From an uncultured Myxococcales bacterium (GTDB taxonomy: Bacteria; Myxococcota_A; Polyangia; Polyangiales; Polyangiaceae): a DNA stretch of 64,000 bases. Positions 5,042-15,872 of this stretch are shown here, in pieces. A program made the translations under genes and the position numbers. The first letter of the stretch is position 1. Each line of letters begins with the position of its first letter. The stretch is taken from positions 1 through 64,000 of the forward strand of contig CALMUT010000086.1 of the NCBI GenBank assembly GCA_937872925.1, read 5' to 3'. The notes beneath the pieces were generated by a model. It searched no databases, was not told the DNA's origin, and saw nothing but the letters and a program-made list of their open reading frames with translations.

Positions 5042-6264
5042 TGGGGCACCCAGCAGTACGCACGGTCTTTCTTGGTGTTCTCGCGTTGGGTTGTAACGCG
5101 CTCTCCGGAGTGAGCGATCTGGAAAAAGTCGACTGCGTCGACTGCGGCAGCGGCGGCGGCGCGGGGAGTGCCGGAACGGGTGGCGGCGCGGGCACGTCGC
5201 CGGTGTCCATCACCGTGGGCCCCAAGAGCAGCTGCGCCATTCTGGCCGACAAGAGCCTGTGGTGCTGGGGTGCGAATCCAGGCGTGGAGCCCGGCGCGGT
5301 GAGCACTAAGGCCGTGAAGGTCGAAGGCATCAGCGACCCCAAGCAAGTGTCCATCGGGTTGGAACACAGCTGCGCGGTCAGCGACTCTGGAGTGGTGTAT
5401 TGCTGGGGTCGCAACGACGCTGGACAATTGGGCGACGGCTCCACTAACGCCAGCGCCGTGCCGAAGGTCGTGCCGCAGCTGGGCGCCATGGACACCGTCA
5501 GCGCCGGCCGCAGTCACACCTGCGCGTACACCGATCCAGGCAGCCCGCCAGTGCAGACGTTTTGTTGGGGCGCCAATGCCTACGGGCAGCTCGGGGACGG
5601 AACAAAGACGGACGCCCTACAGCCGGTCAAAGTCACGCTACCGGGCAATGTCCTGCGCATGGGACCCGGAGGCGACTTCACTTGCGCGGTGATCGACGTG
5701 GGCGGCTCCTTTGACGCCTACTGCTGGGGACGCAACGACATGGGGCAGTGCGGCCAAGACCCCACCGGCACACCCACCGTCGATGCGCCGACGAAAGTCG
5801 CGAACCTAGGACAAGTGGAACGCGTGTATCCCGGCGGCGATCATATGTGCGTGCGCACGCTGGGTACCCGTCTGCCCTGGTGTTGGGGCGCCAACGACCA
5901 CGGCCAGGTTGGCATCAACTCCACCAGCGCCTGGGAGCTACCCCAGGCCGTGGTGGGCGGGTATACGATCGACACCATGTCGCCCGGGGCCCGACACACT
6001 TGCCTCACCGTGCGTACCACCATCGAGGGTGTGTGCTTCGGCGCCAACGAGCTGGGCCAGTTTTCCGGCATCCCCGGCGGTGACCAACCCTTGCCCACCG
6101 CTGTGCCATTCCTTGACGGAATCGGCCATATCATGCGCCGCGCAGACCATGGCTGCGGCATCAAAGACGACAAGGTGCTGTGCTGGGGAGCCAACGACAG
6201 CGGCCAACTTGGCAACGGCACGACGGGCAGCTTCGGAGCGGCCGCCGAGGTGCCCTTTGAGTAG
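5041..6264 (+). CDS. RCC1-repeat lipoprotein
   Basis: A 407-residue protein with a short signal and lipobox LALGC (near residue 18), a Gly-rich linker (GGGAGSAGTGGGAGT), then about seven RCC1-like blades. Each blade carries the C-x-W-G core (CWGANP, CWGRNDAGQLGDGS, CWGANAYGQLGDG, CWGRNDMGQ, CWGANDHGQ, CFGANELGQ, CWGANDSGQLGNG) plus a preceding H-x-C or C-A strand. The fold should be a seven-bladed propeller exposed on the cell surface. In eukaryotes RCC1 acts on Ran; in secreted bacterial lipoproteins the family is taken to be a binding scaffold. The next gene starts 2 bp after its stop, so the two are coupled. Confidence 0.88.
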   Translation: MGHPAVRTVFLGVLALGCNALSGVSDLEKVDCVDCGSGGGAGSAGTGGGAGTSPVSITVGPKSSCAILADKSLWCWGANPGVEPGAVSTKAVKVEGISDPKQVSIGLEHSCAVSDSGVVYCWGRNDAGQLGDGSTNASAVPKVVPQLGAMDTVSAGRSHTCAYTDPGSPPVQTFCWGANAYGQLGDGTKTDALQPVKVTLPGNVLRMGPGGDFTCAVIDVGGSFDAYCWGRNDMGQCGQDPTGTPTVDAPTKVANLGQVERVYPGGDHMCVRTLGTRLPWCWGANDHGQVGINSTSAWELPQAVVGGYTIDTMSPGARHTCLTVRTTIEGVCFGANELGQFSGIPGGDQPLPTAVPFLDGIGHIMRRADHGCGIKDDKVLCWGANDSGQLGNGTTGSFGAAAEVPFE

Positions 6265-6265
6265 C

Positions 6266-7249
6266 GTGCCGCTATGGGCGCGGGCGCGGGCTCGTCGCCC
6301 CCTGGCCTTCGCGCTTTGCCTGGCGCTCTTGTCCGCACCAGCGCTGGCAGAGCCAAGCGCCGCCGAAAAAGAAACGGCACGCAAGCTCGTCAAATCCGGT
6401 CGCGCCAAACAGAAGAGCGGCGACATGGCCGGCGCCCTGGAGGATCTGAAGGGCGCGCACGCGATCATGAACGTGCCCACAACGGGTTTGGCGCTGGGCA
6501 AGGCGCAGCTGGACGCGGGGCGCTTGGTGGAAGCGCGAGACACGTTGCTTTCCGTGGCGCGGATTGCCAAACAAGGCCGCGAACCATTCGCATTTACGAA
6601 AGCGCGAGCGACGGCAAAGACCCTCGCCGCGGACATCGAACCCCGGGTGCCGCAGCTTGAGCTGGACCTCAACGGCGCCGCGGAGGGATCAGACGTGCGC
6701 GTGAACATTGACGGCGTCGAATTCAAGCCAGCGGCCCTCGGCGCCGCCATCTCCCTGAACCCTGGGGAACACACCATCGTGATCAGCGTCAACGGTGACA
6801 AGAAAGAGACCACGACGTCCCTCAGCGAAGGGCAAAAGTCCCTCGTCTCTATCGATCTTTCCGGGCTGGGCATGAAGAAGGCGCCGCCGAAGCCGCTGCC
6901 AATAACCGACTCGCCATCGCAAACGGATCCCTTGGTCTACGTGGGCTTCGGCGTCGCCGGGGTCGGCGTCTTGGTCGGCAGCGTGACTGGGGTCATGGCG
7001 CTGTCGAAAGCATCGTCGGCAAAAGACGGCTGCACGAGCAACCGCTGCCCGCCGGCCACCCACGACGACATCGACGCCAGTTCGACCCTGGGCACCGTCT
7101 CGACGGTCTCCTTTGTGTTGGGCGGCGTCGGCGCCGTAGTGGGCGTGTGGGGCCTCACCCGCAGCGGCGGCAGCAGCGAAAAACCGCCCGGTGCGTCGGC
7201 GTCGGTCTGGCTGGGCCCCGCGAGCGCGGGCGTGTCCGGCAAGTTCTAG
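6266..7249 (+). CDS. TPR/PEGA envelope protein with two C-terminal membrane helices
   Basis: I place the start at GTG 6266, one base after the RCC1 stop. This gives 327 residues with a clean signal peptide (RARARRPLAF core, cleavage after SAPALA near residue 23). Upstream in-frame sequence overlaps the RCC1 gene and is not credible. A TPR-like helical part (ARKLVKSGRAKQKSGDMAG onward) is followed by a PEGA-type beta domain (about 130-200: VRVNIDGVEF ... LNPGEHTIVISVNG). Two hydrophobic helices near the end are joined by a loop with two Cys (DGCTSNRC). The same layout occurs in the proteins at 8917 and 21803. It is convergent with the kinase gene, 19 bp away. Confidence 0.82.
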   Translation: MPLWARARARRPLAFALCLALLSAPALAEPSAAEKETARKLVKSGRAKQKSGDMAGALEDLKGAHAIMNVPTTGLALGKAQLDAGRLVEARDTLLSVARIAKQGREPFAFTKARATAKTLAADIEPRVPQLELDLNGAAEGSDVRVNIDGVEFKPAALGAAISLNPGEHTIVISVNGDKKETTTSLSEGQKSLVSIDLSGLGMKKAPPKPLPITDSPSQTDPLVYVGFGVAGVGVLVGSVTGVMALSKASSAKDGCTSNRCPPATHDDIDASSTLGTVSTVSFVLGGVGAVVGVWGLTRSGGSSEKPPGASASVWLGPASAGVSGKF

Positions 7250-7268: not shown

Positions 7269-8852
7269 TCAGAACTCGAGATCCGAAGACGTTCCGCCAC
7301 CTTTGGGCTTGGGGCGTGGTGCCGGTCGCACTACGGCGGGGGGCGTCTTTTGCTTCTCCGACAGCACCGCGTTGGCACTCGGCTTCACGCTCAGCTTGCT
7401 CGGCTCGTACCCGTCCGCCTGGATTGTCAGCTCGATTTGCTCGTCGGCGCGATCGACGACGATGGTATCTGCAGGGAGGCTGCCGAGCTTCTTGTCGCCG
7501 AGCAGCACGTCAACTTCCTTGGGCTCGGATTGGATATCCAGAGTGACGGTCTTGGGCGCGTCCACCGGCTCGACGACAGGTTCGGCGGACGAGGCAGCCA
7601 CCGGCGGCGCCGAGGCCAGTGCCTGGGCCGTTTCACTGCTGGGCGGGGCTGCCTCGGAAGGTCGGGTGAGCGCGAACGCCCCCAGGCCGACGCCGACCAC
7701 CCCCAGCAGGCCCAAGATCGCGAACACCAGGACGCTTCTGCTCGACCCCGCCGGCGCACTGGTCTCGAGGGGCGGGGCGGTGCGCGCCGACAAGTCCGGC
7801 GGGGCGGCCGCGCGCAACGCCGCCAAGTCCGCTGGAGTCGCAGCCCCCAGCATCACGTCCGCTGGGACGGTCGCCCCCGCGGAAAATTCGCTGAGCGTGG
7901 CGCCGGCCGGCACGCAGGCCGCAAAGCTCTCAATCGCCTGACTTGCCGACTGGGGTCGCGCGTCCGGCTCCTTCTCGAGCATGGCGAGGATCACAGCGTC
8001 AAAGCGTGTTCCAAGCTCCGGCACGACGGTAGAGGGTAGCGGCGGCGGTTCGCTGGCGTGTTTGAACAGCACCTGCATGAACGAATCCGCGACGAACGGC
8101 AAAACACCGGTGATCAGCTGATGGATCACCACGCCAAGGGAGTAGATGTCGGTGCGATGATCGATCTTGGCGCCACGGCATTGCTCGGGAGACATGTAGT
8201 AGGGCGTGCCCATGGGCACACCGGTACGTGTCTTGGCACTGCCCTTGTCGCCAGCAAGCTTCGCGATACCGAAATCCAGCAGCTTGGGCGTGACGCTTCC
8301 GTCTTCTTCGCGCACCAAGAAAATATTCTCGGGCTTGAGATCTCGGTGCACGATGCCCGCGGCGTGCGCCGCATCCAGTGCGCGGGCAATACTCCGCAGG
8401 AGCTGTGCGGTTTCTGCCGGTGAAAGCCGGCCCTGGGCTTCCAGATGATCCTCCAGCGTGATGCCGTCAAGGAGCTCCATCACGAAGTACTGGCGCCCGT
8501 CAGGAAGAGCACCGAACGCAAAAATATCGATGATGTGACGGCTGCGTATCTGATTGACGGCGCGAGCCTCGTCCACGAAGCGCGACACCATCTCGGGATT
8601 GCTCGACAGTTCGCGGTTGAGGATCTTGATCGCAACAGGCTTTCCGATCACCGGTTGCACGGCGCGATACACGGTGCCGAAGCCGCCCTCGCCGAGCTTC
8701 GCCTCGACTCGGTATTCGCCAACCATGTGTCCAGCCGCTAGCTCCTTGTCGAGCCCCTGCACGGCCACGTCAGGCAGCAGCGTCGTGCCATCGTCCGCGC
8801 ACTGGTGCACGTCGTCTGGGAAGTGCTTCTGACACTTGGGGCACGTAGCCAT
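7269..8852 (-). CDS. Ser/Thr kinase with N-terminal zinc ribbon and C-terminal PEGA domain
   Basis: A 527-residue protein. Residues 4-21 are a small zinc-ribbon-like knuckle (CPKC ... HQCADDG) common at the front of myxobacterial kinases. The kinase domain (about 47-310) has LGEGGFGTVYRA (53-64), VAIKIL with Lys76, HRDLKPEN (169-176, Asp171), LDFG (192-195) and MSPEQ (220-224). A single membrane helix spans about 373-396. A PEGA domain (about 434-492: DIQSEPKEVDVLLGDKKLG ... ADGYEPSKLSV) follows on the outer side. The PEGA domain probably reads a wall or surface signal for the inner kinase. It is the last of three leftward genes, 64 bp after the double-PEGA gene; no Shine-Dalgarno site is seen. 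Confidence 0.92.
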   Translation of the reverse strand: MATCPKCQKHFPDDVHQCADDGTTLLPDVAVQGLDKELAAGHMVGEYRVEAKLGEGGFGTVYRAVQPVIGKPVAIKILNRELSSNPEMVSRFVDEARAVNQIRSRHIIDIFAFGALPDGRQYFVMELLDGITLEDHLEAQGRLSPAETAQLLRSIARALDAAHAAGIVHRDLKPENIFLVREEDGSVTPKLLDFGIAKLAGDKGSAKTRTGVPMGTPYYMSPEQCRGAKIDHRTDIYSLGVVIHQLITGVLPFVADSFMQVLFKHASEPPPLPSTVVPELGTRFDAVILAMLEKEPDARPQSASQAIESFAACVPAGATLSEFSAGATVPADVMLGAATPADLAALRAAAPPDLSARTAPPLETSAPAGSSRSVLVFAILGLLGVVGVGLGAFALTRPSEAAPPSSETAQALASAPPVAASSAEPVVEPVDAPKTVTLDIQSEPKEVDVLLGDKKLGSLPADTIVVDRADEQIELTIQADGYEPSKLSVKPSANAVLSEKQKTPPAVVRPAPRPKPKGGGTSSDLEF

Positions 8853-8916
8853 GACAGCGGAGAGGAGCGTACCGCGGGAGAGCGGCAGTCGCTACCCTCG
8901 CGCAAAAAAGGGCGCG

Positions 8917-10158
8917 CTAGAAGCGACCTCGCAGCGATAGTGCCGAAAGCGACGGTCCCACGCTGGGAGCCAACGAGATTTCCATGCTGCTGGGCGCGGC
9001 AGGAGACTGTTTGGGCGCGGGGCCCGTCGAACGATCCAGTTCCGGGACCTGCACGCGGGGCTCGTCGAAGGAGAAGAGCACTATCGACGTGCCAACCAAC
9101 GCCAGGCCTGCGCCGCCGGAAATGAACGACGCCAAACGGAAACGATCGCGATGGTCTCGCTTGCGTTCGTAGTCTCCTAGCGCACTTGCCTTCGCGTTGC
9201 CGGCGCCCTCGGCGTCGTCCAAGATCGCTTCTGCGTCGCTCTCTGCTTTGAACGCGAGAGCGCCAAACACGCCGCTTCCGACCAGCGCGCCCGCGCCGAC
9301 GCCCAGGGTGATCCACGCCGCGGTGCGCTGCCCCGTAGATTCCAAGTCCACAACAAGCTTCTGCTTTTCGCCGCGACTCAGACGCAGCGTCTTGGTGAAT
9401 GCGCGACGGCCGTTCTGAGTCACAGCCAAGAAATGGCTGCCCGCTGGCAGCTTCAACGCCGGTTGGGGCGCAATCCCGACGAAACGGCCGTCGACTGCGA
9501 TCTCAGCGCCCTCGGGAGCCACGACGGAAACCTCTGCTGGCTTCTCGGTCAACGCAACGTCGATGGGCGGCGCGCCGGCCACAGGGTCAACGGTGACCTC
9601 GCGAGCGTAGTCTTCGTACCCGGCCGCGCGGATCAAAACCTGATGCTTGCCCGGCGTCACTTCGGAGATGAACGTGGAGCCGTCGACCGGCCGACCGTCG
9701 AAAATGATCTGAGCACCTTCCGTTGGGGAACTCACCATGACTCGTGGCTTCTGCGTGGCCGGGGCCGTCGCCGCTGGAGGCGCGCCTTCGGGATCGCTGA
9801 TCTTCTCAAGCAGGGGAACCAGCTTCTCTAGGGCCTGGGTAGCCTCTCCAGCGCGTTTGCCTCCAGACTCGTTCTGCAAGTACTCGCGATAGTAGCGCAC
9901 CGCTTCCTGGAGCCGCGCCGCGTCGCTGTCCTTGAAGAACTGCATGCGGTTCGCTTGGCCCAAAGAAAACAACAAGCCGGGACGCTGCGCGCGCTTGTAG
10001 GCTTCCTCAAACGCACTGATCGCGTCCTTGTACTTTCCGGCCTGGTACGACTTCGCACCAATGTTGAAGAACGCGCGAGCGTCGTCGCTCTTGCCCTGAG
10101 CCAGGGCCCCGCCGCAAAGAAGCAGGGCAGCGCCGAAAACGCATGCAGACCGTCTCAT
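8917..10158 (-). CDS. TPR plus double-PEGA envelope protein
   Basis: A 413-residue protein with a Sec signal peptide (cleavage after GGALA, residue 20), a TPR-like region (ARAFFNIGAKSYQAGKYKDA and the next repeat, about 25-110), then two PEGA domains (about 128-195 and 197-265; RAAGYEDYAREVTV and LPAGSHFLAVTQNG). Two membrane helices follow near 275-300 and 335-360, with a charged loop. Its ATG overlaps the TGA of the FG-GAP gene (ATGA at 10155-10158), so translation is coupled, and the kinase gene follows. It probably acts in the envelope as partner or input for that kinase (inference). The layout matches the proteins at 6266 and 21803, but the inter-helix loop lacks Cys. Confidence 0.85.
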   Translation of the reverse strand: MRRSACVFGAALLLCGGALAQGKSDDARAFFNIGAKSYQAGKYKDAISAFEEAYKRAQRPGLLFSLGQANRMQFFKDSDAARLQEAVRYYREYLQNESGGKRAGEATQALEKLVPLLEKISDPEGAPPAATAPATQKPRVMVSSPTEGAQIIFDGRPVDGSTFISEVTPGKHQVLIRAAGYEDYAREVTVDPVAGAPPIDVALTEKPAEVSVVAPEGAEIAVDGRFVGIAPQPALKLPAGSHFLAVTQNGRRAFTKTLRLSRGEKQKLVVDLESTGQRTAAWITLGVGAGALVGSGVFGALAFKAESDAEAILDDAEGAGNAKASALGDYERKRDHRDRFRLASFISGGAGLALVGTSIVLFSFDEPRVQVPELDRSTGPAPKQSPAAPSSMEISLAPSVGPSLSALSLRGRF

Positions 10159-12884
10159 CGGGATTCCTGTCCTTTCAAAACTCGCAGAGAGCCATTGAAA
10201 CCCAGCACCAGATCCTCCACACCATCCGCGTCGATGTCCCGAGCCAAGAGGGCGAAGGCGCGGGAGTCCCGGGCGCCGAGGCCAGGCAGCAGCTTGGGTT
10301 TGTCCGGGTTGTTCCCACCCAGGAACTGCCCAGCGAAGTCCAAATCCGCAACGGGCCTCTGGATCGTCGCGAGCTGCGCCCCTAGGTCCAGCTCCGCGAT
10401 GACCAGGCCTTCGTTGGTGATCAGTGCAACTTCCTGAGCTTCGTCCTGGTCGGCTTGGATCAGCGCAAACCCGACGAGGGAGGTCGCCCCGGGAACCGAT
10501 AGGTTGATGGGTGCGTCGAAGCGAATGCCCCCACCCGCGTCGCCTGGATACACCACCAAACCGGTGATGCCGGTGTCGTTGGCCGGTGCCATGGCGATCA
10601 CGTCCTTGCCGGGCTGACCGTCCAACTCAGCGGCCGCGGCTTGTCCGGTGCCAACTGCGTCGAAGATTGGCTTGTTCTTGCCTAGCAGGGCCGCGCGGAA
10701 CTGGTCACAGGTCAGGCGCTGAACAAAGGGTGCACTGAAACGAAAACCCACCGGCTCCGGTCCTTGCGCCAGTTTGAACTCCGGCGGTTCTCCCGTCGCC
10801 TTGAGTACCAGCGCCTGACCATTTGAGCGCTCCAATTCCAGAATGCCACGGGAAAGGAGCACGAGCTCCATCACGCCATCGCCGTCTATGTCCATCGGCA
10901 GCGTGAGCGCGCCGCAAGCGTCGAAGCCTTCCGGCAGATCGAGCGGCGTGCCAACGCTCGAAAGCGTGATCAGCGCTTCGTCCTCCGTCGAGAGCAGCCA
11001 GGCACGTTGCTTGAGCCCGCCAGCTGCGGTGCCGAGGAATGAGAGCGCCGCGATGTCGTTGCCCAAAGTTCCGAACTGCCCGACGCTCGCGCGCATCGCA
11101 AGATCCGGCTCGTCGGTGGTCGACTGCAAGAGCAAATACGGCGACTGCAACAAGCGGCTGCCGCTGCCCTGAAAGATCGCGATGGCGCGGTTGCCGTCGT
11201 CGTCCGTGGACAGCACCCCAATGTCTGCCACGGTATCCACCCCCGCAAAGTCCAGCCGGCCGACCACGAGCTGCTCGACGGAACCGAGTTCCGCAAAGGT
11301 TTGGGGCGGCAGAGGCGGACCGAAAGCTTGACTGAAAAGGACGCTCAAGGTGTCGTCACCAGCGCTCGCCGTCGGATCGGAGAAATCCGTCGGCTCGCTG
11401 CGCTCCAGGATGGCCAGATCCGTCAGTAGGTCTCCGTCGAAGTCTCCGGTGACCAGACGCACGGGAAACCCGGAGGTGGGGATGAGGAAGCCGTTGAACG
11501 CGCCATTGCCAAAGCCGTTTAAGAATTCAACGCTGAGGGTGCCCTGCCGCAAAAGCGCGATGTCCACACCGGGCGTCGCATTGAACTGGCCAATGGCGGC
11601 GTCGATCCACGGCGGCCCGTTGTTTCGCGCGCAAATATATCCCGGCACGCTCTTGTCGCAGTCCCCCTTGTCTCCGGGCGAACCTGGCGCGCTCACGATG
11701 ACGCCGGAGGGGAAAACGGCATCGGTGAAACCATCCGCATTGACGTCACCCAATGCCAAGGGGGCGCTCGGCACGGGCGACGCAACCAGAGCAAACTTCT
11801 GGTCCGGTAGGATCAATCCGGGGACCTCCGAGGCGACGGAGTGGAACTTGCCGTTGCCCAGGCCGAATGTGACGAAGATGCCCTGAACCGGACCCACGCT
11901 CGCCGTGGCCAGGATGTCGGCGTTGCCATCTCCATTGACGTCTTGGAGCATGACTCTCCCGCTGATCTTTGCGTTGCCCGGCAACGCCACCGGCGGATAC
12001 AGCGCAGGATCGTGGTTCCACGCATTGGCGCCAGGTTGCGCCACCGCCATGACCAGGATTTGCCCTCCGTCCTTTTTCGCGAGCACCAGTTCGGCGGATT
12101 GTCGTCCGTCTTGAGCATCCACGTCCGCAGCCGCCACCGGGAGTTGCAGGTCGGCTGCAGGGAACGGCAGATCGAAGAGCTTTTCGTTGTCGAACTCGTG
12201 TTCGATTCGGCTTTCAATGAAGCGGAGCACTTCGTCGGCAGCAAAATAAGCGTTCTGGGAGTTGGTCGGCTGGCGCGCTTCCAACACCGCGTACGTCACC
12301 GTTCCCGCCGCCACGTTTAGGGACGAGTACGACGTCGCCTGGAAGGTTTCATCCGCTTGCCCCCGGAAGACACTCACGCCAAACGTCGTTAAGTCGACCA
12401 GGTCGCCCACGCCATCGGGAACACCGTCGAAATCCGCGGTCAGGTTGCCGACTGCCGGCGCAGCAGCCATGGCGGGCAGCGTCGCTTCGCTCACCACGCC
12501 ACCGGACTCCTCCAGGTACAGCGCGCGCACCTGCAGGCTGCCGAAGGTCACCAAGTCACTGACACCGTCCCCGTCGAAGTCGGCGATGTCCGCGAACGCC
12601 GCGCCCGGCGTGCCGATTTCGTTGACGAGCTCAAAGCTACCACTCGCTGTTCGACACACGCCGTCGAGTCCGCAGGTGGCCGCGCCGCCGCCGCATTCGT
12701 CGTCGGCTTGGCACAGCCTTCGACAGGCTTCGTCCGTGTCCGGCTGCCCGCAGCTGATGTCAGCGGAGTCGCAGGCTTCCCCGGCTTCCACGACGCCGTT
12801 GCCACACACGCCGGCGGGCAAATCCGGTAGCTCCGCGCAGCCCAACGCGGCAGCCGCGATCACCCAAAGGAGTACACGCTTCAT
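10155..12884 (-). CDS. FG-GAP/VCBS repeat lipoprotein
   Basis: A 909-residue lipoprotein (lipobox AALGC, Cys16). A Cys-rich module follows (CGNGVVEAGEACD, the myxobacterial Cys-rich repeat), and then a long array of FG-GAP/VCBS blades. Many carry the calcium-binding DxDxDGxxD loop: DFDGDGVSDLV, DVNGDGNADIL, DVNADGFTDAV, DFDGDLLTDLA, DIDGDGVMELV, DIDADGVEDLV. The fold should be an integrin-like beta-propeller displayed outside the cell, suited to adhesion or ligand binding. It is the first gene of a leftward operon with the double-PEGA protein and the zinc-ribbon kinase. The start at 12884 has no Shine-Dalgarno site but has a -10-like box 8 nt upstream. Confidence 0.88.
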   Translation of the reverse strand: MKRVLLWVIAAAALGCAELPDLPAGVCGNGVVEAGEACDSADISCGQPDTDEACRRLCQADDECGGGAATCGLDGVCRTASGSFELVNEIGTPGAAFADIADFDGDGVSDLVTFGSLQVRALYLEESGGVVSEATLPAMAAAPAVGNLTADFDGVPDGVGDLVDLTTFGVSVFRGQADETFQATSYSSLNVAAGTVTYAVLEARQPTNSQNAYFAADEVLRFIESRIEHEFDNEKLFDLPFPAADLQLPVAAADVDAQDGRQSAELVLAKKDGGQILVMAVAQPGANAWNHDPALYPPVALPGNAKISGRVMLQDVNGDGNADILATASVGPVQGIFVTFGLGNGKFHSVASEVPGLILPDQKFALVASPVPSAPLALGDVNADGFTDAVFPSGVIVSAPGSPGDKGDCDKSVPGYICARNNGPPWIDAAIGQFNATPGVDIALLRQGTLSVEFLNGFGNGAFNGFLIPTSGFPVRLVTGDFDGDLLTDLAILERSEPTDFSDPTASAGDDTLSVLFSQAFGPPLPPQTFAELGSVEQLVVGRLDFAGVDTVADIGVLSTDDDGNRAIAIFQGSGSRLLQSPYLLLQSTTDEPDLAMRASVGQFGTLGNDIAALSFLGTAAGGLKQRAWLLSTEDEALITLSSVGTPLDLPEGFDACGALTLPMDIDGDGVMELVLLSRGILELERSNGQALVLKATGEPPEFKLAQGPEPVGFRFSAPFVQRLTCDQFRAALLGKNKPIFDAVGTGQAAAAELDGQPGKDVIAMAPANDTGITGLVVYPGDAGGGIRFDAPINLSVPGATSLVGFALIQADQDEAQEVALITNEGLVIAELDLGAQLATIQRPVADLDFAGQFLGGNNPDKPKLLPGLGARDSRAFALLARDIDADGVEDLVLGFNGSLRVLKGQESR

Positions 12885-12972: not shown

Positions 12973-15372
12973 TCAGCGGCTGAGACGGATGGGCAACACC
13001 ATCATTTCATCGGCAATATTAGACTCGTATAAAAACGCATATGCCGCCCGGCTGGCGAGCACGCGCTTGGTGTAGCGGCGCGTTTCGTTGAACGGGATCG
13101 CCTCGACCCAGACATCGAAGTCCATGCTCGGGCGCTCACGCAACCAACGCCGGGGACGCCCGGGGCCCGCGTTGTATCCAGGGATCGCGAGCACCGGGTT
13201 CTGGCGGAACGACTTGTTCAGTTCGGCTAGCCCTCGGCTGCCGAGCGAAATGTTGACGCTCGGGCGCTTCAGGGACGCGGGGTCGTAGGGCAGGCCGACG
13301 GGCTTGGCGAGCATCTTCGCCGTGGGAATGATCAGCTGCATCAAGCCGTAGGCGTCCGCGTGACTGACCGCCGAAGGGTCGAACGCGCTTTCCTCACGCA
13401 TGACGGCGTAGACAAGGCATTCGGGCACGGCGTTTTTCTTGGTCTCACGCACAACGAGATCGTGGTGCGGCCGCGGGAACGCCAGCTCCCACGCCTTCGC
13501 CCAATCGCCGGACGGCCAGCGCGCGAGCCAATCCGTCAAGAGCCCGCGAGTCACCTGGTGGGCATCTTTCGCGGAGCCTGCCCGAGCGTATAACAGCGCC
13601 ACGGCCCACAACAGCTCGGGAGCGGCGCCGGCTTTGACTAATCCCAGCGCCTCGATTTCCTGACGCGCCAAATCGAACTCGCTCTGGCGCAGGAGTTCCA
13701 TGGCACGCTCGAATCCCGGCTGCTGGAGTTCCGGCCGTTGGGGGAAGGTAAAAGGCTCCGCGGCCGACTTCTGCACGGCTTCGTCCCGGACGCGTTTTGC
13801 CCCGAAGGGGTCGCGCTCCACTAGCCGTGAGTAGGCGTGCAGCATGTAGTACGAAAGCGGCAGCTCGCGGACGATGGCCTCCAGTTCGGCGAAGCCTCGC
13901 TCCACCTCACCGGTTTCCATCCACGCACGCGCCCGGAAGTAGCGCTCCCGTCCCGAGAACTCCGTGCCCCGGGCACTATCTCGCCCCTGAACCAACTCGG
14001 CGGCCCGATCGAGAACCGAGGCCGCGCCGGACCAATCCCCCTTCTCCATGCGACGCATCGCGAGGCGGAACACGCCGTCGAGCATCATGTCGCCATCGGG
14101 GTAGTCCTGGGGCATTGCCGTGAGTAGTTCGGTGAAGCGCGCTTCCACGCCCATGTCGAAATAGGAAAGCGCGCCGAGCATGCGAGCATCGTCCGCCAGC
14201 CGATGCTTGGGGAGTTCCTTTTCCAAGCGCGCGAAATGCGCCACGGCTTGAGCATGGCGTCCATCCCGAGCGGCAAAGCGCCCAGCGAGATACAGGGCTC
14301 GGGCCCGTTGGTCAGGGTCCTTGCAATGCAGAACCGCTTCCTTCAAGGAATCCGCGGCACGCCCCGTTTCGCGCTGGGCCGAGATGGACTTGCCACGCAG
14401 GATCAGTGCCTCGCAGCCCACCACGTTGTAGCGCTGGTTGCGTGGGGCGGCTTTCTGCAAATCGTTGGCGGCACGTTCCGCGGCTTGGTGCTCCCGGGCA
14501 TCGGAAAGCGCGCGCACGCGTGCCAGGCGCTCGTCCGGCGAAGGCTGCGCATGGCGCGCACGCTGGGCGCGTGGCAAAGCCTCAAGGGCGCGGTTCGCGA
14601 GCGCTTCGGCTTGCCGCGACCGAGCGCTCGGCAAAGCGGACTCCGCCGCCACGCGCCGTGACAACCGCAGCGCTTCAACGACGTCACCATCGGCGGCGCC
14701 GGGGCTCGATGTGCGTGATGCCGCCCGCCCCAGCAGCGCTTCCGCCAAGCGCAGCGCGGTGCCCGCGTCCGACGGGGCCGGCGTCTTGGCCATATGCTCC
14801 CGCCAAATCTCGATGGCCTCATCCCAACGCTTCAGCCCTGCAAGGGCATCCGCACGTAAGAGGCGCATCTCTTCGTAGATCGGCTGCCCCCGCGTCACCT
14901 TGTCAAAGTACGCGAGCGCCCCAGCGCCATCCCCCCGGGAAGCGGCGATCTTGCCTTGAAAGAACCTGGCGTGATCGCGCAGCGCCCACGCGCTGCCCGC
15001 GGAGGCCTCATAAGCAGCGAGGGCACCCGTCCGATCTCCAGCGCGCTCCAGCACCCGTGCGAGAAGAAATTGCAGGCGCAGGTGGCGCAGGCTCCCCGAG
15101 GGGGACGCCTTCACTTTGCTACGGATCGCTGCCGCCGCACGCCGCGGGTCGTTTTGCTCCAGCGCCTTGCGCGCCACGCTCAACTCCGGCAGCGAGAGCA
15201 GCGGCACGAACGCTTCCAAGGACACACCGTCAACGCCGGGCGCGACGGACGCGCTGGCGGAAGCCACCGGTTTGGTCTGGGTCAATGGCGGCGGCGCCCC
15301 CTGCTCCCGGGGCTTCTGCTGGGCGGAGCATGCGCAAGCAACGCCGAAGAAGATGATGCCAAGGGATCTCAC
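12973..15372 (-). CDS. Slt70-like lytic murein transglycosylase lipoprotein
   Basis: The start is GTG 15372, which overlaps the stop of the upstream gene (GTGA). This gives 799 residues with a lipoprotein-type signal (FFGVACAC). In-frame sequence further upstream runs through the previous gene. Residues about 40-630 are helical TPR-like repeats, as in the Slt70 U-shaped superhelix. The last 150 residues are the SLT domain: REES (659-662, catalytic Glu), AYGLMQLIIPTA (674-685), PGYNAGPG (731-738) and RRYTKRV (766-772). It cleaves the MurNAc-GlcNAc bond of peptidoglycan to leave 1,6-anhydro ends. It is 800 residues where E. coli Slt70 is about 620, because the helical part is longer. Cotranscribed with the coiled-coil protein before it. 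Confidence 0.92.
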   Translation of the reverse strand: MRSLGIIFFGVACACSAQQKPREQGAPPPLTQTKPVASASASVAPGVDGVSLEAFVPLLSLPELSVARKALEQNDPRRAAAAIRSKVKASPSGSLRHLRLQFLLARVLERAGDRTGALAAYEASAGSAWALRDHARFFQGKIAASRGDGAGALAYFDKVTRGQPIYEEMRLLRADALAGLKRWDEAIEIWREHMAKTPAPSDAGTALRLAEALLGRAASRTSSPGAADGDVVEALRLSRRVAAESALPSARSRQAEALANRALEALPRAQRARHAQPSPDERLARVRALSDAREHQAAERAANDLQKAAPRNQRYNVVGCEALILRGKSISAQRETGRAADSLKEAVLHCKDPDQRARALYLAGRFAARDGRHAQAVAHFARLEKELPKHRLADDARMLGALSYFDMGVEARFTELLTAMPQDYPDGDMMLDGVFRLAMRRMEKGDWSGAASVLDRAAELVQGRDSARGTEFSGRERYFRARAWMETGEVERGFAELEAIVRELPLSYYMLHAYSRLVERDPFGAKRVRDEAVQKSAAEPFTFPQRPELQQPGFERAMELLRQSEFDLARQEIEALGLVKAGAAPELLWAVALLYARAGSAKDAHQVTRGLLTDWLARWPSGDWAKAWELAFPRPHHDLVVRETKKNAVPECLVYAVMREESAFDPSAVSHADAYGLMQLIIPTAKMLAKPVGLPYDPASLKRPSVNISLGSRGLAELNKSFRQNPVLAIPGYNAGPGRPRRWLRERPSMDFDVWVEAIPFNETRRYTKRVLASRAAYAFLYESNIADEMMVLPIRLSR

Positions 15373-15872
15373 GAACCGTTCCGCTCCCCATTGAAACGCC
15401 GCGCCAGCCACGCCTCTTCCGCAGTCTGTTCTTCGGCGCTGTCCTGGGAGCGCTTGCGCGCCGCGCTCCAGGCTTGTTCGTGCTTCCCGACCGCTTCGGA
15501 GGCAGCGTCCGCATGCGCCAACCCCCTGCGTGCTCTGGCTTCCTCGGCGAGTTGCTGGCCGAGATTTGCTTCGGACTGCTCGCGCTGCTGCGCCAGGGCG
15601 CGCCGCTGCATCTGCGCAGCGTGCTCCCAACCCGCCGCGTGCGCCAAATCCTGCGCACGCAGCTTTCCGCCCTCAAGCTGCGCCCGCTCCTCGTCCTGAG
15701 AGCGGGCGATCGCCTGAGCATGGCGCTGAGCCTCCTCTTTGGCACGCGCAGCGGCGGCCTCTGCCTCGACCGTGCGCTGGCGCTCCGCAGCCAGCGCACG
15801 CGCCTGGGCATCCACGGCAGACTTTCGCTGATCGCGCAGCGCCTGCAGGGGATAGCGCGGACGTTTGCTCAC
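15369..15872 (-). CDS. Coiled-coil protein, FliJ/YscO-like candidate
   Basis: A 167-residue protein, almost all charged helix rich in Ala, Glu, Arg and Gln. The beginning (SKRPRYPLQALRDQRKSAV) resembles the N-terminus of FliJ and the type III secretion stalk proteins YscO/SctO, and the length fits. No other flagellar or type III gene lies nearby, so this is only a resemblance. The start is chosen at GTG 15872 because TAGGTT ends 7 nt upstream of it; a TTG at 15881 is in frame but would lie inside that box. It overlaps the transglycosylase start by 4 bp, so the pair is coupled. A structural helper for wall remodelling is an alternative. Confidence 0.6.
   Translation of the reverse strand: MSKRPRYPLQALRDQRKSAVDAQARALAAERQRTVEAEAAAARAKEEAQRHAQAIARSQDEERAQLEGGKLRAQDLAHAAGWEHAAQMQRRALAQQREQSEANLGQQLAEEARARRGLAHADAASEAVGKHEQAWSAARKRSQDSAEEQTAEEAWLARRFNGERNGS

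Follow-up and report, generated by a model that had tools for sequence, protein, structure and literature searches.

Gene anatomy of the locus

Myxobacteria possess very many Ser/Thr kinases, the input of most of which is unknown. The present locus raises the question whether one such kinase receives its input from a surface lipoprotein and a membrane protein encoded directly beside it, as the initial annotation of the window (the whole analysed stretch of 64,000 nucleotides from an uncultured Myxococcales bacterium; draft genome size 9.39 Mb) had proposed. The genes concerned and their two neighbours are:

5909–7249, plus strand: convergent neighbour, weakly TPR/PEGA-like two-helix protein ending in GKF
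7269–8852, minus strand: Hanks-type Ser/Thr kinase with PEGA ectodomain (527 aa)
8917–10158, minus strand: TPR/double-PEGA two-helix membrane protein (413 aa), below termed PEGA protein
10155–12884, minus strand: FG-GAP lipoprotein (909 aa)
12973–15630, minus strand: TPR lytic transglycosylase (SLT), neighbour upstream of the trio

The minus-strand order is thus SLT, FG-GAP lipoprotein, PEGA protein and kinase. The stop of the FG-GAP gene overlaps the start of the PEGA-protein gene by 4 nt, and 64 nt separate the latter from the kinase gene. A scan for sigma-70 promoters found none, and the surroundings of the 64-nt gap display no outstanding structure (z −1.64). Open reading frames and Pfam scores confirm the earlier designation of the three leftward genes as FG-GAP lipoprotein, double-PEGA protein and PEGA kinase: (i) FG-GAP_3 at 54.5 bits (cut-off 26.9), (ii) PEGA (PF08308) at 66.0 bits in two stretches (cut-off 20.8), with TPR matches on the same protein below cut-off, and (iii) Pkinase at 164.8 bits.

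The kinase comprises an N-terminal CxxC..C ribbon-like motif, a catalytic domain (47–307), a transmembrane helix (374–392) and a 135-residue ectodomain with PEGA at ~432–503. In the whole protein this PEGA domain scores 17.3 bits (below the cut-off of 20.8), in the ectodomain scored alone 22.1 bits (above it). PEGA is matched at E≤0.01 by 26 of 31 homologous kinase ectodomains and in 24 of 45 scanned whole kinases. The score of the isolated ectodomain and the recovery of the aligned PEGA segment in 62 of 64 modules bear out the outer PEGA domain claimed for the kinase. Of 64 module kinases, 63 (that of the window among them) possess the canonical glycine loop, VAIK lysine, HRD and DFG.

The PEGA protein consists of a TPR part (~23–121), two PEGA domains (~139–191 and ~208–269), two transmembrane helices and a Pro-rich tail ending in LSLRGRF. 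Its structure model (four sequences, mean pLDDT 65) is confident for the TPR part (~23–121) and two beta domains (~139–269) only. A fold search against BFVD returned phage baseplate and surface proteins, which were set aside; profile matches in the PDB nearly all concern the TPR part, hardly probing the PEGA part. A C-terminal Phe on a beta-strand-like tail occurs in 48 of 51 module PEGA proteins (window 8920–8990), and the same tail is found on most other PEGA/TPR two-helix proteins examined in the own genome (window 7200–7246; L002, L003, L006, L008, L242–L249). Such a Phe-ending strand resembles the C-terminal signal of outer-membrane barrels; no barrel is present in these proteins, and contact with the outer membrane, BAM or a PDZ domain is possible. 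The host genome carries 57 PEGA matches altogether, an expansion to which none of the open-licence papers found assigns a function.

In the FG-GAP lipoprotein, the lipobox LG^C16 of the signal peptide can be read directly from the sequence. Across the family, a rule-based lipobox is present in 39 of 67 matches, the others being truncated, over-extended or atypical ORFs. The FG-GAP profile matches all 35 aligned homologues at E≤0.01; members of this alignment were picked for a lipobox and >800 aa, so that invariance of the lipid Cys is given there by construction. Eight further Cys of an N-terminal Cys-rich segment (C27–C77) are kept in 97–100 % of these homologues. This segment is followed by ~13 FG-GAP-like blade motifs with conserved Asp loops, the one feature that points to calcium binding; a propeller of this kind is probably calcium-stabilised. 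The single-sequence structure model of the protein reaches a pLDDT of 31. The PDB entries matched by its profile comprise integrin alpha V, CRTAC1, fungal lectins and a secreted esterase, so that one would naturally guess at a propeller that binds a ligand. At residues 263 and 282 of the window lipoprotein, Ser and Ala replace a Cys pair found in 86–89 % of homologues; both halves of a possible disulfide are thus absent together.

Co-occurrence of the three genes

Loci were collected with three anchors via sequence search, i.e., not at random, and one profile set with fixed thresholds scored all 120 of them. Contig ends conceal partners in many of the draft genomes, and the resulting misses were separated from true ones by inspection of locus maps. 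All three genes are present at 72 of the 120 loci (window included), distributed over several families. Hence, the three families do occur together in other genomes, the contrary of which had been named in advance as the observation speaking against a joint system.

With the FG-GAP anchor, matches were obtained in 41 of 144 genomes of the order, and the trio is whole at 38 of 40 regions, the two misses (L063, L070) being located at contig ends. When the kinase served as anchor (E≤1e-80), 49 of the 144 genomes contributed 72 sites: 47 are complete, 8 are cut by contig ends, one is rearranged (L087, half a kinase fused to the end of an FG-GAP gene) and 16 harbour the kinase without partners. Considering these 16 close relatives, the kinase type can work alone, which counts against the relay proposed below; seven of them (L089–L095) form a related set, six with shorter outer parts. 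The PEGA-protein anchor (E≤1e-40) matched in 92 of 289 genomes of the class. Among its 39 regions, 22 are complete, 9 lie at contig ends, 3 contain the FG-GAP and PEGA genes accompanied by a less closely related kinase (218–237 bits), and 5 (L209, L214, L217, L220, L221) are without a partner or its full match. Outside the class, one family contributes three further complete loci (L251, L254, L255). The FG-GAP protein family was detected at E≤1e-30 in 35 of 377 genomes sampled across the phylum. In the complete locus of genome G284, the module ORFs lie in shifted frames.

The own genome contains a single full-length copy each of the FG-GAP partner (738 bits, next match 45) and of the PEGA protein (473 bits, next match 85). 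Chance neighbourhood was rejected as an explanation, as none of 11 regions around the other FG-GAP matches of this genome contains the trio; in four of them (L263, L264, L265, L267) no FG-GAP ORF reaches the profile threshold used, and in two (L261, L270) an ordinary kinase has a weakly PEGA/TPR-like gene next to it on the opposite strand. Ordinary kinases near weakly TPR/PEGA-like genes were encountered at L145, L171 and L162 as well as at these two loci. A kinase paired with a PEGA/TPR protein may therefore represent a broader arrangement, the FG-GAP trio being one form of it.

Anatomy and co-inheritance identify the trio as a real, widespread and apparently unnamed three-gene module; no description of an FG-GAP/PEGA/kinase module was found in open-licence PMC full text. 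At five loci (L101, L108, L201, L205, L237), two or three FG-GAP genes accompany a single kinase, which suggests that the recognition part has expanded.

Gene order and comparison of orthologous loci

From the order of the genes in the window, a path from surface binding via PEGA contacts to phosphorylation had been suggested. This was not borne out: the usual order is kinase–FG-GAP–PEGA (58 of 72 complete loci), while the order of the window, FG-GAP–PEGA–kinase, is shared with one other locus only (2 of 72, the second being L078). Kinase–PEGA–FG-GAP occurs in 3, and the nine other complete loci display extra genes, a different order or mixed strands. Gene order varies and that of the window is rare; it therefore carries no pathway meaning. 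Of 63 FG-GAP/PEGA pairs that are adjacent on one strand, 60 display the 4-nt overlap between FG-GAP stop and PEGA start.

A constant fourth gene is absent, as within 5 kb no neighbour family exceeds 9 of the 72 complete loci, the commonest (9 of 72) being other kinases. The convergent TPR/PEGA-like neighbour was rejected as part of the module since it is not conserved with the trio, and the SLT transglycosylase was likewise rejected, its family being found near the module in 5 of 72 loci. In the window and in three sister-genus loci, the SLT gene lies directly next to the module; it marks the orthologous locus in the sister genera. The three sister-genus genomes share the arrangement CarB–SLT–kinase–FG-GAP–PEGA–(3242 homologue)–kinase/RDD, i.e., the kinase gene precedes the FG-GAP/PEGA pair there, whereas it follows the pair in the window. 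In a genome of the same genus (G063), SLT borders directly on the 3242 homologue; all three module genes are missing there, as are the RCC1 and P0005 genes. Presence or absence as one block at the orthologous locus, by gain or by loss, fits a single function of the trio.

One might argue that a stable operon, with products acting in one process and no physical relay between them, accounts for all of this, since operon structure and descent suffice for agreement between gene trees. Persistence of the trio through changes of order (kinase–FG-GAP–PEGA, kinase–PEGA–FG-GAP, FG-GAP–PEGA–kinase and mixed strands), together with relocation of the kinase gene within one and the same orthologous locus, makes mere co-inheritance improbable, even though the distance correlations given below partly reflect phylogeny.

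Kinase clade and correlated divergence

The kinase tree places 69 of the 72 module kinases in one clade, which also contains 8 partnerless kinases; a search of genome contigs with the kinase-alignment profile returned mostly ordinary kinases among the matches listed. The three module kinases outside the clade are presumably the outliers L048, L050 and L052, whose catalytic domains are ~38 % identical to the rest. Their ectodomains still match that of the window (E 3e-7, 9e-7 and 3e-8, respectively), suggesting that the catalytic half was naturally exchanged while the outer half was retained.

Distances were computed from uncorrected identities over 64 complete modules of 49 genomes. Median identity decreases from the catalytic domain (0.59) via the PEGA protein (0.34) and the kinase ectodomain (0.27) to the FG-GAP protein (0.25). 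The ectodomain distances correlate with those of the FG-GAP protein (0.78) and the PEGA protein (0.76) and to a lesser degree with those of its own catalytic domain (0.44), the highest value being that between FG-GAP and PEGA protein (0.87); saturation and shared descent contribute to these Mantel correlations and are not fully removed. None of 999 permutations reached any observed correlation. After removal of four outlier kinases, the values are 0.78 (ectodomain/FG-GAP), 0.76 (ectodomain/PEGA protein), 0.60 (ectodomain/catalytic domain) and 0.86 (FG-GAP/PEGA protein); partialling out the catalytic distance in this reduced set leaves 0.66 (ectodomain/FG-GAP), 0.60 (ectodomain/PEGA protein) and 0.77 (FG-GAP/PEGA protein). 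In 17 within-genome pairs, the ectodomain correlates at 0.84 with the FG-GAP protein, at 0.70 with the PEGA protein and at 0.29 with the catalytic domain, and FG-GAP with PEGA protein at 0.87. Nearest neighbours agree in just 20 to 32 of the 64 modules. The kinase ectodomain thus follows its two partners more closely than its own catalytic domain.

These profiles bear on two rival explanations. In the first, lipoprotein and PEGA protein would form a structural or adhesive scaffold in an envelope-assembly module without outside ligand, with the kinase regulating assembly or being itself regulated by peptidoglycan via PEGA in a PASTA-like manner. PEGA has been named a peptidoglycan-associating domain (PMC7159879), and the transglycosylase next to the module in the window and its sister-genus loci would be in line with such a role; however, the scarcity of this family across the complete loci and the fastest divergence being that of the lipoprotein (0.25 versus 0.59 for the catalytic domain), which is better suited to recognition than to a scaffold, render a purely structural role unlikely. 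In the second, the kinase would sense a cytoplasmic state and phosphorylate, or control in another way, the PEGA protein through its short charged cytoplasmic loop, thereby changing display of the lipoprotein or adhesion. While co-inheritance of all parts and a near-invariant residue (Y330 in the alignment) in the predicted loop joining the two helices of the PEGA protein would agree with signalling in this direction, the strongest correlated divergence is that of the extracytoplasmic parts and no conserved Ser/Thr is evident in the loop; we regard inside-out control as very unlikely.

Proposed function and relation to known systems

Taking together gene content, co-inheritance, translational overlap, intact catalytic residues and correlated divergence of the extracytoplasmic parts, the best reading of the module is an envelope-spanning Ser/Thr kinase relay of three components that transmits an outside signal into the cytoplasm, to which we assign a probability of roughly 60 %. 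Localisation, topology, contacts, signal direction, activation, ligand and substrate are those that we infer in the following. At the outer membrane, the FG-GAP lipoprotein, with Cys-rich neck and propeller, would serve as the variable part responsible for recognition. The PEGA protein would act as coupler, anchored by its helical hairpin in the inner membrane and exposing TPR and PEGA domains to the periplasm. The single periplasmic PEGA domain of the kinase would then receive the signal; as a result, the cytoplasmic kinase domain would change in activity, dimerisation or stability and phosphorylate a target encoded elsewhere.

The closest functional parallel is provided by the kinase PpkA. 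In Serratia marcescens, periplasmic RtkS is reported to bind the periplasmic domain of PpkA (two-hybrid and co-precipitation) and to be required for stability and activity of PpkA as well as for substrate phosphorylation (PMC6082577); in Pseudomonas aeruginosa, TagR, which is associated with the outer membrane, is proposed to target PpkA (PMC10482370). According to these accounts, the TagQRST–PpkA and RtkS–PpkA systems resemble the proposed relay in that a membrane Ser/Thr kinase is influenced at its periplasmic domain by outer-membrane TagQ and periplasmic TagR/RtkS. They differ by serving type VI secretion together with Fha, PppA and an ABC transporter (TagST), whereas the trio lacks a constant fourth gene and possesses an FG-GAP lipoprotein and a TPR/PEGA coupler. 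No constant neighbour family corresponding to the type VI secretion, Fha or PppA components of this threonine phosphorylation (TPP) pathway was found within 5 kb of the 72 complete loci. By analogy, the trio is best read as working like TagQR/RtkS–PpkA, yet it falls outside the genetic definition of that pathway. With Foldseek, the PEGA-protein model matched two 76–77-residue chains of the RtkS–PpkA complex 9k1u (E ~1e-4) over ~77 columns (TM 0.15 of the query, aligned range in the model not given); judging by the lengths of the published constructs, these chains would be the PpkA part. A profile of the kinase PEGA sequences had no match to 9k1u and no solved relative below E 0.3. As a precedent for contact between PEGA protein and kinase, the model-based match is suggestive only.

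Other systems share single traits with the trio. The Rcs phosphorelay (RcsF–IgaA–RcsC/D) is likewise described as relaying from an outer-membrane lipoprotein to an inner-membrane kinase regulator; to our knowledge, it is a histidine phosphorelay devoid of FG-GAP, PEGA and Hanks kinase. PASTA kinases (PknB/Stk1) correspond in having a Hanks kinase with one transmembrane helix and a small extracytoplasmic domain, but the trio kinase reaches only 283.6 bits against the NCBIfam PknB_PASTA_kin cut-off of 450, and the Pfam scan of this kinase detected no PASTA repeats. We know of no dedicated lipoprotein partner required by PASTA kinases. The integrin alpha propeller has FG-GAP repeats with Asp loops in common with the trio protein, which differs as a bacterial lipoprotein with a PEGA protein and a kinase for partners, so that the relation holds at the repeat level only. 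As a rather doubtful specification of the relay, one may speculate about an integrin-like outside-in adhesion receptor: a fast-diversifying, often multi-copy FG-GAP propeller on the surface would sense contact with matrix, with prey or with a partner cell and, via PEGA–PEGA contacts spanning the envelope, switch the kinase, with copies of one genome differing in ligand and an exchangeable catalytic domain.

The pkn4 region is described in the Sorangium/Myxococcus phosphatome paper as the sole kinase region syntenic among seven myxobacteria (PMC2887360). In the recurrent trio, a single kinase clade is combined with a surface protein and a coupler of its own, which offers a testable input chain in dozens of genomes.
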